Source: Parabacteroides sp. PF5-9 (GTDB taxonomy: Bacteria > Bacteroidota > Bacteroidia > Bacteroidales > Tannerellaceae). Taken from it: DNA of 64,000 bases. The notes below the pieces were generated by a model. The model was given only the letters and a program-made list of their open reading frames with translations. It was not told the DNA's origin and ran no database searches. The stretch covers positions 1 to 64,000 of the forward strand of contig NZ_JARXWG010000018.1 of NCBI RefSeq assembly GCF_029893105.1, given 5' to 3'. This document shows positions 3,403 through 63,171 of this stretch, in pieces. The number at the start of each line of letters is the position of its first letter. Position 1 is the stretch's first letter. Both the position numbers and the translations under genes were made by a program.

Positions 3403-5640
3403 TTAATCAAATAATAGTTTTGTTACAGCTGCTGTGTCTATCGCCCATTCCATGGAATACACTTCATCCGCTTCCGGAGTTTCAACCAACTCAATATGCT
3501 GAGCTTTAGCCTTCATGGAGAGTAATTCTCCGATTGTTGTTTTACTTTTTAGGCGTGCCAGTAGGGCTTCTACTTTTTGGAAAGATAAGTTATTGACGAG
3601 TTGTCCATCAAAAGGTATTTCCATCCAAATAATCTCGCGTGCCTGTACATCAAGAATACCAAAAAGTAAACCTTTTGTCAAATTTTGTGATACACGAACC
3701 TGGTGTTGTACACAAGACGGATCGTAAGCCACCCCGGTTTCATCAGAAATACGCATCGGATTCGCCGAATTCATCCAGCCCACTACAAGGTTAGGCGACA
3801 AGGCTCCCCTGCTATATGCATTGCATGTAAACAATACGTATTTGGCTTTTTCAACAGCCAGTTCATTCAGGTCGAGTTCAATATATTCGGCTGTACCGAT
3901 CATGTCCGGAATCCGCTGGATATCTCCGCTATGTTTTGCACCGGGTGCTACCAAATGATAGAAGGAGCAATAGCTGACATAATCTTTCATGATTATTTGT
4001 GCACTGAGATCCATATCCAGATGTTGTGCCGGAAGTCCTTTTCCCCATTGCATAAACAGACGAACGCTGTTTCCTTCTACAGGAAATTTTGTCCCCATGA
4101 GTGCACAGGAGGTGTCCTGAATTGTTTCACTTCTGTCGCCAATGGCCAATGGGATATTGAACAGCATCGGGTCGATATACATTGTTTGTGATTCCGTCGG
4201 AATGTCAGTAAAGCGCTTGAATACAGCAGTAAGGCATAATTCTTTAATTTTACGGATCATTTCCTCCAGTTGTTCATCTGTATGAAGATTGATCAACCGG
4301 TTGGGCTTGATTGTTATGGGAGTTTCTCCCAATGGTCTGACAATACGTATCTGGTGACGCTTGAAATAATGTTGTGCATGCATATTTAAAGTAAAGACCA
4401 GCCGTGCCGGGACTTTATCAATAACTTCCTTGAATGCATTTAATGTGTCGTCGGCGCCAAACCATAACATATTCGCGAATAATGAACGCGCAAATAATCC
4501 GGGACGTTGTTTAAGTAACGCAAAAGTTGTTTCCATATCCATTTTAAGACGGGCAGTCTCCATTTCTCCCTTTACAACGGGATATGTTTCATTGTAGAAG
4601 ACATCCATTAAGTTTTGAAGGCGTTCAAATCCGGGCTTTTTAGCATATTCAGCCAGACGTAAAGCACGGATGATACGTACCCACATACCGCGTTTGGGAT
4701 GCATAATTTCACAAGCCTTTTCGGGTTCCATATCCAGCTTGTTAAGCCAGGTGGCGGCAATACGGCACTCTGCACGTGTATATTTCAATTTTAGCTCTGT
4801 CTTCATTTTCTGCCGGGCTTCCTTTTTCCGGTTTAATGCCACCCATACATGGGTGTGGTTGCGTGCGAATCGATTTATGATGGTTTTAGGTTCAATGAGT
4901 TGCATATAATCGGTTTGGGTATACCAGAGGTAACGCAGTATATCATTCGGATTGTTAAAGTAAACCTGTGCTTTTTCGATTTCATTTTTTTCAACCAGTG
5001 AATCAATGATGAGGACAGTTGTTTCTTTCATGCTCACATTGACTTCAGGAAGAGGAAGTTCTCTTAACAGAATTTTCAAACTGTCTACCTGTGTGGCATC
5101 AAGGGCTGTACGTGATTCAAGAAGGTTCACAAAATAGTTGTTTAACTCTTTTTCTGTCCACAACTCCAACACGTTTAATTTGCTGCCTTGTCCGAAGTTT
5201 TCGATTTTACCGAATTCAAACGGTTTTCCACAAAATGGACAGCCATTATACCGTTCAAGTGGGAATGTTTCTTCCGGAATAAGGTGACCACAGGCCAACC
5301 GGGTGCCTTTGTGTGTATATATCGCATTGGCGAATAGAGTAACGATATGATCTAATAAAGATTCACCAGTCGGTACATCCCACTCCTTCACCAGTGGAGC
5401 CCAATTGAGGTTTATTCCCTTGACTTCTCCCAATAATTCAAATAGATCACATTTATCCATCGGATTCATATGATTGATTGCAGTCAATAGATTTTCGGAA
5501 ACGGTATATCCTAATCTGCGTAGGTTGCCGACTAATGATAATGTTGTAGCATTGATCTCTTCTCTCTCTGCAATTATTTGTTCTTTGGAGATAAATACTG
5601 CTTGTTGACGAAGTGATACTCTTAATAGATCTGTATTCAT
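3403..5640 (-). CDS. RING-like and TerD-like domain protein (MXAN_6230/SCO0854-like)
   Basis: A 745-residue cytoplasmic protein. Near residue 117 a RING-like knuckle is visible: CGHLIPEE, then 13 residues later CPFCG. The middle (about 170-470) is helical, without recognisable motifs. The last third resembles TerD tellurite/stress domains: a DMDLSA motif, HSGD about 30 residues later, then an IELDLNEL strand and a strand ending in VLF. This layout matches what I recall as the MXAN_6230/SCO0854 family of RING-domain proteins; that name is from memory. Function is unknown. It appears to be a single-gene unit. Confidence 0.6.
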   Translation of the reverse strand: MNTDLLRVSLRQQAVFISKEQIIAEREEINATTLSLVGNLRRLGYTVSENLLTAINHMNPMDKCDLFELLGEVKGINLNWAPLVKEWDVPTGESLLDHIVTLFANAIYTHKGTRLACGHLIPEETFPLERYNGCPFCGKPFEFGKIENFGQGSKLNVLELWTEKELNNYFVNLLESRTALDATQVDSLKILLRELPLPEVNVSMKETTVLIIDSLVEKNEIEKAQVYFNNPNDILRYLWYTQTDYMQLIEPKTIINRFARNHTHVWVALNRKKEARQKMKTELKLKYTRAECRIAATWLNKLDMEPEKACEIMHPKRGMWVRIIRALRLAEYAKKPGFERLQNLMDVFYNETYPVVKGEMETARLKMDMETTFALLKQRPGLFARSLFANMLWFGADDTLNAFKEVIDKVPARLVFTLNMHAQHYFKRHQIRIVRPLGETPITIKPNRLINLHTDEQLEEMIRKIKELCLTAVFKRFTDIPTESQTMYIDPMLFNIPLAIGDRSETIQDTSCALMGTKFPVEGNSVRLFMQWGKGLPAQHLDMDLSAQIIMKDYVSYCSFYHLVAPGAKHSGDIQRIPDMIGTAEYIELDLNELAVEKAKYVLFTCNAYSRGALSPNLVVGWMNSANPMRISDETGVAYDPSCVQHQVRVSQNLTKGLLFGILDVQAREIIWMEIPFDGQLVNNLSFQKVEALLARLKSKTTIGELLSMKAKAQHIELVETPEADEVYSMEWAIDTAAVTKLLFD

Positions 5641-8419: not shown

Positions 8420-8663
8420 ACGTTTAAAATTTGACTGTTTTTACTTCTAATTATTTTAATGAAGCGCGCTCTACTTATACAGACAATTGAAGGAAGAATA
8501 TATTTTAAGCGACAATGAAAAAAACGACTCTTTCTGAATCACTCATCATACATATCGATGCAAATGTGTGTGATTTTTCTGAAAATCCGACCCTTTGACT
8601 ATTCTTTTATTGTACAACGACTAACTGTTTTCTTCCGGATCGCTCACTTTTTCTTTTGGACAA

Positions 8664-8759
8664 TTAATCGTCTAACAGTTGGTAGACGATAGTGCACCAG
8701 TTGGTAGACGAAAGTGATCCAATTGGTAGACGGAAGTGAACCAACTGTTAGACGATTAA
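8664..8759. repeat. 22-bp-period repeat array with inverted ends, family 1, locus 1
   Basis: The array is bounded by a perfect 19-bp inverted repeat: TTAATCGTCTAACAGTTGG at 8664-8682 and its complement at 8741-8759. Between the ends, units starting CAGTTGGTAGACGATAGTG, CAGTTGGTAGACGAAAGTG and CAATTGGTAGACGGAAGTG follow each other at exactly 22 bp. Three full units are present. Related arrays occur at 18221 and 47640. There are no spacers between units. Confidence 0.85.
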
Positions 8760-8772
8760 ATAATGCAGAAAA

Positions 8773-8824
8773 AAAATAGACGTTATGCGGAGAAAATAAG
8801 TAGACGAACATATACGTCTATTTT
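8773..8824. repeat. Inverted repeat related to array 1
   Basis: AAAATAGACGT (8773-8783) and its exact complement ACGTCTATTTT (8814-8824) enclose a further TAGACGAAC. The shared TAGACG core and the position 14 bases beyond the array suggest a degenerate extension of the array. Confidence 0.5.
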
Positions 8825-8965
8825 AGCGATAAAGGGGAGGGGTTGTATATAAATAGTTCTTTTGTGAAAGCGGTAGGGGTATGTTTTAAAGCAGGTGTTA
8901 TAGTTAAATAATATTAACACAAGTGATTTTTCCGCCTCTTTATGCTGTAAAACATAAAATTGTCG

Positions 8966-8973: not shown

Positions 8974-8979
8974 CATTGT

Positions 8980-9049
8980 GTTTTTCATGGTATTAGATTT
9001 AAGGTTAACAATGGAGATTGGTTGTCGGGATGACAACCTTTTCTTTTTT
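8980..9049 (+). ncRNA. Candidate small RNA of about 70 nt
   Basis: A promoter box at 8966-8973 predicts a start near 8980. A 7-bp hairpin (GGTTGTC at 9020-9026, loop GGGAT, GACAACC at 9032-9038) followed by TTTTCTTTTTT is a good intrinsic terminator. The only small frame inside starts ATGGTATTAG at about 8989 and runs through the terminator, which argues against coding. The next gene has its own promoter at 9221. I do not recognise an RNA family. Confidence 0.4.
9020..9049 (+). terminator. Intrinsic terminator of the candidate small RNA
   Basis: A perfect 7-bp stem (GGTTGTC and GACAACC) with a 5-base loop is followed by TTTTCTTTTTT. Confidence 0.6.
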
Positions 9050-9220
9050 AATACCTATTCTACCGCATTTTCCAAAAGTTCTGTTTTTTCCACCCGACAT
9101 TCAGTACATCTCTATTCCTTTTTCTTTTTGTAACAAGATTATCTATTCACATTCATTCTTACCGATTGGTCGTGATTAAAGATAACAAGACAAACACTTT
9201 CAAATGCAAAAATAATCTGT

Positions 9221-18220: not shown

Positions 18221-18315
18221 TTAATCGTCTACCAATTGGTAGACGATAGTGACACAGTTGGTAGACGATAGTGCACCAATTGGTAGACGAAAAGGAACCA
18301 ACTGGTAGACGATTA
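18221..18315. repeat. 22-bp-period repeat array with inverted ends, family 1, locus 2
   Basis: Units begin CAATTGGTAGACGATAGTG (18233), CAGTTGGTAGACGATAGTG (18255), CAATTGGTAGACGAAAAGG (18277) and CAACTGGTAGACGATTA (18299), all exactly 22 bp apart. The left end TTAATCGTCTACCAATTGG is the complement of the right end with one mismatch. The left edge forms a 24-bp perfect palindrome (18224-18247). It sits between the divergent ABC-F gene and a lipoprotein gene. Confidence 0.85.
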
Positions 18316-47459: not shown

Positions 47460-47894
47460 ACCATCTCTTTTTATCGAGACAAATGTACATAATCTCGATG
47501 ATAATCCTATCCAACAGATAAAAAAAGCGTGTTTTGTTTAAAAAGACGACTATTCGATACCCTTAATCATGTCCTGTTGTTTTTATCTCCATCGCTTATG
47601 CAAATGTTCTGCTATTCGCTTATTTTTTTTCTAACCGGATTAATCGTCTACCAATTGGTAGACGATAGTGACACAGTTGGTAGACGATAGTGACACAGTT
47701 GGTAGACGAAAGTGATCCAATTGGTAGACGATAAGGATCCAACTGGTAGACGATTAGTGTATCTGAAAAAAGAGATCGACGATTAATTATAAAAAGAATA
47801 GGTGATCTGCGTTATTGGTTTAAGCGATCTATTTATGATCTGTTTGATCGATCTGTTTGTTTTTTCTTATATTCGCTTGTCGAAAAAAACAATT
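47460..47894. other. Intergenic stretch, about 435 bases
   Basis: It separates the collagen-like lipoprotein gene from the divergent oxidoreductase gene and holds the third repeat array of family 1 (47640-47756). A weak TATATTCG lies near 47869, one mismatch from the consensus. Confidence 0.5.
47640..47756. repeat. 22-bp-period repeat array with inverted ends, family 1, locus 3
   Basis: Units start at 47652, 47674, 47696, 47718 and 47740, all 22 bp apart; cores are CAATTGGTAGACGATAGTG, CAGTTGGTAGACGATAGTG (47674), CAGTTGGTAGACGAAAGTG, CAATTGGTAGACGATAAGG and CAACTGGTAGACGATTA. It has one unit more than loci 1 and 2. Ends are complementary (TTAATCGTCTACCAATTGG and the complement with one mismatch). 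The left edge forms the same 24-bp palindrome as locus 2 (47643-47666). Confidence 0.87.
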
Positions 47895-63071: not shown

Positions 63072-63171
63072 AAGAATTCATTCGACAATTGTCAAATGAT
63101 CGTTTCACAATTGTGGAATGATCATTTGATAATTATAGAACGATCGTTCTACAGTTATCGAATGAATTCTT
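63072..63171. repeat. 22-bp-period repeat array with inverted ends, family 2
   Basis: Ends are AAGAATTCATTCGA (63072-63085) and its exact complement (63158-63171); the match extends to 21 bp with two mismatches. Inside, CAATTG (63086), CAATTG (63108), TAATTA (63130) and CAGTTA (63152) recur at 22 bp, with GATC-type palindromes at 63098, 63120 and 63142 about 11 bp out of phase. Same design as family 1 but unrelated sequence. Confidence 0.8.

Follow-up and report, generated by a model that had tools for sequence, protein, structure and literature searches.

The DNA analysed here (the window, 64,000 nt in length) belongs to the genome of Parabacteroides sp. PF5-9 (Tannerellaceae), which was searched over 3.69 Mb in 46 contigs, and carries four short arrays of 22-bp units, three of one family (F1) and one of a second (F2):

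8584..8663, + strand: left arm of F1 array 1, with T tracts phased at 22 bp, based on the family statistics (family-wide)
8664..8759, + strand: F1 array 1, with a TTAATCG edge, an inverted half-site, four direct half-sites at 22-bp pitch and a CGATTAA edge; 96 bp with edges, core 94 bp
8760..8839, + strand: right arm of F1 array 1, with A tracts phased at 22 bp, on the same family-wide statistical basis
18221..18315, + strand: F1 array 2, four units, 94-bp core at 18222-18315
47640..47756, + strand: F1 array 3, five units, 116-bp core at 47641-47756, the only five-unit copy in the genome
63074..63169, + strand: F2 array, 96 bp, GAATTCATTCGACA ... TATCGAATGAATTC, with F1-like architecture and the unit of an HU-HIG gene on contig C30

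A first-pass annotation of the window had already placed one element at the three F1 loci, correctly in each case, and had described units that abut without spacers, in agreement with a unit spacing of exactly 22 bp; the F1 core motif occurs nine times in the window (≤3 mismatches) vs. 0.06 occurrences expected from shuffles. The inverted terminus of array 1 is perfect, as had been noted, but comprises 20 bp instead of 19 bp. The fourth array (63074-63169), which is built like F1 from a different unit, had been overlooked. A CRISPR array is rejected because the units abut without unique spacers, and so is a known structured RNA, since no Rfam family matches at any array of the window, where the only matches, a tRNA and a small RNA, overlap none of them. 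The latter, BTncRNA_FopS (RF04319), of a Bacteroidetes family of paralogous sRNAs, lies at 8978-9050 (+), 219 bp to the right of array 1.

A genome-wide search for the 22-bp core, which had been proposed together with the annotation, yields 73 matches to the F1 unit (≤1 mismatch) vs. none for the reversed control, and these group into 36 elements, 33 of which are of equal length: measured from TAATCG to CGATTA, 33 elements span 94 bp (four units), two span 72 bp and one spans 116 bp. A four-unit element opens with one inverted half-site, after which TTGGTAGACGA, or a sequence close to it, recurs four times in direct orientation every 22 bp. Direct reading of the sequences reveals a second half-site, weaker, degenerate and facing the other way, between the direct copies, which makes each 22-bp unit a quasi-palindrome. 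All 36 elements appear to lie between genes (16 divergent, 13 tandem and 5 convergent pairs, with two elements at contig ends), as called by a simple, crude ORF scheme that also predicts a few short frames overlapping elements. The genes next to the elements are of various kinds, with no common function or pathway seen among them, and their outward-facing TAnnTTTG promoter boxes are mostly located past the arms, at a distance of 100-160 bp or more; promoter boxes facing inward at the array are found at only 3 among 71 flanks of the dispersed copies in PF5-9. Plasmid records contain no match to F1 element DNA.

The boundaries had been regarded as conserved and the flanking DNA as not. The former holds, but the latter is wrong as regards periodicity: over about 80 bp on each side, T and A tracts recur in the flanks with a 22-bp phase. 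The T tracts fall near -15, -37 and -59, the A tracts near +13 and +35. Within these 80-bp arms, identity at lag 22 lies well over background (z 7.8 left, 6.1 right), and outside them nothing is seen (z -0.1 and -0.3); the arms of P. distasonis have the same lag-22 pattern, as do, more weakly on the left, those of G003, a genome from another Tannerellaceae genus. In some copies, the flanks are also alike between approximately -60/-80 and +80/+105 and diverge completely farther out (L053/L058/L044, L045/L059 and L039/L040, with common blocks of approximately 235-267 bp). The shared blocks imply that part of the F1 set has spread by copying, and no outer inverted repeats are evident by eye at their limits (~-60/-80, +80/+105). 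A further repeat, approximately 290 bp long, is common to the right flanks of L032, L059 and L062, where it extends next to the array from about +80 to +380. Stretches like GAGTTCGATATAA, which resemble the published end of the Porphyromonas gingivalis element MITE239 (PMC4596501, Table 2), occur at or near the outer limit of L053 (right, +77), L058 (right, +78), L039 (right, +96) and L047 (left, -154).

The first-pass description as a repeat element thus captures one dispersed family of 22-bp units with inverted ends and kept edges, but F1 is not a stand-alone repeat, because its unit also precedes an HU-HIG gene and arrays are general at HU-HIG/winged-helix genes. An array is located directly upstream of the same (orthologous) HU-HIG gene in PF5-9, G003 and G105 (an uncultured Parabacteroides), P. 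distasonis, whose HU-HIG protein is the HU family DNA-binding protein WP_034527279.1 with an array of 94 bp, has the same arrangement, and the ortholog with its upstream array is found in five genomes. The gene product of about 200 aa matches the HU-HIG family PF18291 with E-values of 3e-34 to 3e-31, and with 108.7-118 bits vs. a curated cut-off of 26.2 in three genera. When HU-HIG genes of Tannerellaceae and of further Bacteroidales families (72 in all) were compared with control upstream regions from the same set of loci, 54 of the 72 HU-HIG upstream regions passed a lag-22 test (threshold 27 of 44 matches) vs. 1 of 345 controls, the single passing control being a plain direct repeat in locus L049. 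The top repeat lag is 22 in 58 of the 72 regions, and some of the 18 regions that fail the test have mis-set gene starts. The unit of the array is private to each HU-HIG gene and mostly palindromic. Thirty of 50 arrays (vs. 2.9 expected from shuffling) have a TAnnTTTG promoter box between -60 and +10 relative to their start, mostly 17-29 bp ahead of it.

Named examples agree (Bacteroides finegoldii, Phocaeicola massiliensis, P. distasonis), with a weak signal for the upstream array at one of the four HU-HIG genes of B. finegoldii (L318). The exact F1 pattern gives no match in the named genome collection, and a scan of this collection using HU-HIG proteins gives only two Parabacteroides loci. 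In two records labelled as uncultured phage (L323, L324), HU-HIG genes are present for which the 22-bp lag is the top upstream signal. Most short HU-HIG genes are without an array, but 3 of 20 have one, which indicates that the winged helix is not strictly required; a rule by which arrays would occur only with a winged helix is rejected on these grounds.

The PF5-9 genome contains seven PF18291 matches, two of which, on contigs C39 and C30, are strong against the full-length alignment, and 17 to 54 matches per genome are found in the seven relatives searched. HU-HIG proteins are strongly expanded in G083 and G087 (Tannerellaceae, genus group g15), with 54 and 45 matches, respectively. In AlphaFold modelling with two sequences, only the C-terminal domain (approximately residues 141-200 of the Parabacteroides ortholog) is modelled well, with a pLDDT of 74-89, and the remainder of the model is poor. 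This domain is predicted to be a winged helix, and Foldseek searches with it return ArsR- and MarR-type winged-helix regulators as well as the centromere protein AspA, with weak E-values. Similarity between units correlates with similarity between proteins (Mantel test, r 0.35 for the HU part and r 0.22 for the C-terminal part, p<0.001), a correlation that could stem from linked descent. In a partial Mantel test that controls for the HU part, the C-terminal part makes no further contribution, and a specificity that resides solely in the winged helix is therefore unsupported. The literature searched, outside which many subscription papers fall, describes no DNA site for the HU-HIG family.

The second full-length HU-HIG/winged-helix gene of PF5-9, on C30, carries the unit TTTGACAATTGTCGAATA in its leader. 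Near-identical units of this F2 type occur at no fewer than 32 loci (at least 32) in the genome, among them the array at 63074-63169 of the window, which has inverted edges. Nine dispersed F2 copies and the gene's own array have no shared flanking blocks and no clear periodicity in their arms, so that phased arms, absent or weak in F2, are rejected as a universal feature. F2 arrays are often found close to contig ends, at distances of no more than a few hundred bp (C3:393, C6:20, C10:126, C17:115, C19:114, C34:92, C35:115), and this proximity suggests that they may break the assembly. A third 22-bp array, with a TTTAGAGGTACGTCTAAA-type unit, is located upstream of a short HU-HIG gene on contig C34 (L275, approximately 4357-4444). 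The units of both full-length HU-HIG/winged-helix genes of PF5-9 are thus dispersed in the genome, and the same applies to a private unit in P. distasonis (about 10 sites in each of two genomes), to one in G154, which belongs to another family, and to the private units of two different HU-HIG genes in B. finegoldii.

Among 61 near genomes, the initial F1 pattern matched only G003 besides PF5-9 itself. Looser patterns revealed about a dozen arrays in G003, nearly all of 94 bp and with a unit different from F1, and several arrays with a third unit in G105. Arrays are found at the rsmH-adjacent dcw cluster, a locus annotated in P. distasonis, and at the thyA/dfrA locus in PF5-9, G105, G077 and G078, and beside genes that we take, from their sequence, to be mscS and phoH in PF5-9 and G105. 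Each of the five arrays examined in G105 has a PF5-9 counterpart; these shared-locus calls stem from blastp between neighbouring genes and not from whole-genome synteny, and the gene order next to thyA differs in G105. The presence of arrays at several loci in other genera too implies an old origin for part of the set. The unit is specific to each genome and used throughout it: on average, arrays share 0.51-0.66 of their 6-mers within a genome vs. 0.13-0.25 between genera, and arrays of different genera at the same locus share 0.11-0.51. Constant positions combined with a unit that is replaced across the whole genome are what one would expect if the sites track a single changing protein, with gene conversion between arrays as an alternative explanation for the concerted change.

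The explanation that we favour, with a probability of roughly 75%, is that the elements are cooperative binding arrays of autoregulated HU-HIG proteins and serve as regulatory or chromosome-structuring sites; binding, cooperativity, self-repression and an architectural role are what we infer from sequence patterns, whereas the arrays with their constant size, private units, link to HU-HIG genes, dispersal, loci common to different genera and concerted unit change are observed. Each array would comprise the sites for one HU-HIG protein, which combines an HU-type DNA-bending domain with, in most cases, a C-terminal winged helix. One HU-HIG dimer might bind each 22-bp palindromic unit, and the four units, which are two helical turns apart and hence on the same face of the DNA, would be occupied together in a complex that, in F1, may reach into the phased A/T-tract arms. 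At the gene itself, the array starts just past the promoter box, so that binding should repress the protein's own transcription. The dispersed copies, which are intergenic and mostly outside the promoters of their neighbours, might each form a local chromosome-structuring or regulatory site, and a private unit for each paralog would keep the sets of arrays separate from each other.

A related possibility, which overlaps with this explanation and differs from it in the effect of binding, is that the dispersed arrays function as the usual operators in a classical regulon, with the HU-HIG protein as repressor or activator of the genes next to them. The position of the array just past the promoter box at HU-HIG genes, the divergent orientation of the flanking genes at 16 of the 34 PF5-9 elements with both neighbours known, and the target loci common to different genera would all be in line with such a regulon. 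However, the outward promoter boxes of the neighbours lie mostly past the arms (100-160 bp or more away), the neighbours have no evident pathway in common, and convergent gene pairs are among the array sites, which together make a classical regulon rather unlikely. The position past the promoter box also implies that the array at HU-HIG genes should be transcribed and, together with the palindromic units, could be taken to mean that the arrays act as RNA, i.e., as tandem hairpins of the HU-HIG leader transcript that were copied elsewhere. Since the dispersed PF5-9 copies seldom have an inward promoter box (3 in 71 flanks), no Rfam family is found at the arrays, and the phasing of the arms at two helical turns points to double-stranded DNA, a function as RNA is highly improbable.

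The elements might instead be non-autonomous mobile repeats of about 235-270 bp, similar to MITEs or to the BrickBuilt repeat of P. gingivalis, which are moved by a transposase encoded elsewhere and carry the array as cargo, perhaps captured from an HU-HIG leader, with binding being incidental. F1 is indeed short, multicopy (36) and, under the simple ORF scheme, intergenic, with a 94-bp core and without a transposase gene. Mobility would account for the three groups of F1 copies in which a block extends about 60-80 bp to the left and 80-105 bp to the right of the core before the sequences become fully different, as well as for 36 copies in PF5-9 compared to about 10 in P. distasonis, and BrickBuilt sets a precedent in the same order (PMC4596501). 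It is difficult to reconcile, however, with the occupation of the same loci in different genera by arrays of different units, with a unit number that is fixed in 33 of 36 elements, with F2 arrays that share no flanking blocks, and with the absence of the IS5-type ends of BrickBuilt. Mobile repeats are hence considered improbable, more so than a regulon.

If the arrays are binding sites of HU-HIG proteins, as we favour, Bacteroidales might possess many parallel and separate addressing systems: each HU-HIG paralog, of which a genome has up to dozens, would have a private four-unit, 22-bp array at its own intergenic sites, with loci partly kept across genera and units rewritten in concert, resulting in a layered, protein-specific chromosome architecture. 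This wider view is tentative and somewhat short of an even chance. No earlier description of HU-HIG/array pairs was found in the papers that could be searched, and the arrays would appear to be the new part. HU-HIG proteins are numerous in gut Bacteroidales, and the arrays supply a predicted target list for each protein, which opens the family to direct tests in culturable commensals. They also suggest a new view of intergenic repeats hitherto classed as minisatellites or MITEs, and a unit that changes genome-wide at fixed sites would be a clear case for the co-change of a DNA-binding protein and all of its sites.

The first-pass annotation knew of no named family with the structure of F1, and no named family with the F1 sequence was found. 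The closest described repeat, without sequence kinship, is BrickBuilt, a minisatellite/MITE of P. gingivalis with a 23-nt unit, AGAYCATARTATCCTCTCRTRTG, and 19 dispersed intergenic copies of 1 to 22.8 tandem units that are bounded by IS5-type terminal inverted repeats, GAGACCTTTGCA / TGCAAAGGTCTC (PMC4596501). Like F1, BrickBuilt combines short, spacerless tandem units, dispersed intergenic copies, a Bacteroidales host and conserved flanking segments, and one copy, BrickBuilt_14, adjoins a gene for a DNA-binding protein with a PF00216 annotation (PMC4596501), which by annotation resembles the F1 array beside an HU-HIG gene. In contrast, the F1 unit is 22 bp long and of different sequence, and its number is fixed at four in 33 of 36 elements. 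The BrickBuilt unit pattern is absent from PF5-9 and 392 other genomes of the order (393 in total), and its IS5-type ends, with ≤2 mismatches allowed, are missing from the DNA up to 160 bp away from each of the 36 F1 cores. Membership of F1 in BrickBuilt is rejected on the basis of unit, ends and variable length. The published BrickBuilt unit contains a 12-base compatible palindrome across the unit junction, which is reached by 214 of 5000 shuffles and is only suggestive. Nothing further on P. gingivalis PGN_0872 as an HU-HIG protein was found in the literature searched.

Other systems are comparable in their logic. In MatP-matS and ParB-parS, one DNA-binding protein is paired with repeated sites that are spread over the chromosome, as is the putative binder of the HU-HIG arrays, but the HU-HIG system has a four-unit array at each site and many paralogs with private units. 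In REPIN-RAYT, a gene is likewise paired with a private, palindromic intergenic repeat that is dispersed in the same genome; the RAYT gene, however, encodes a Y1-type transposase, whereas the gene linked to F1 encodes an HU-HIG protein.
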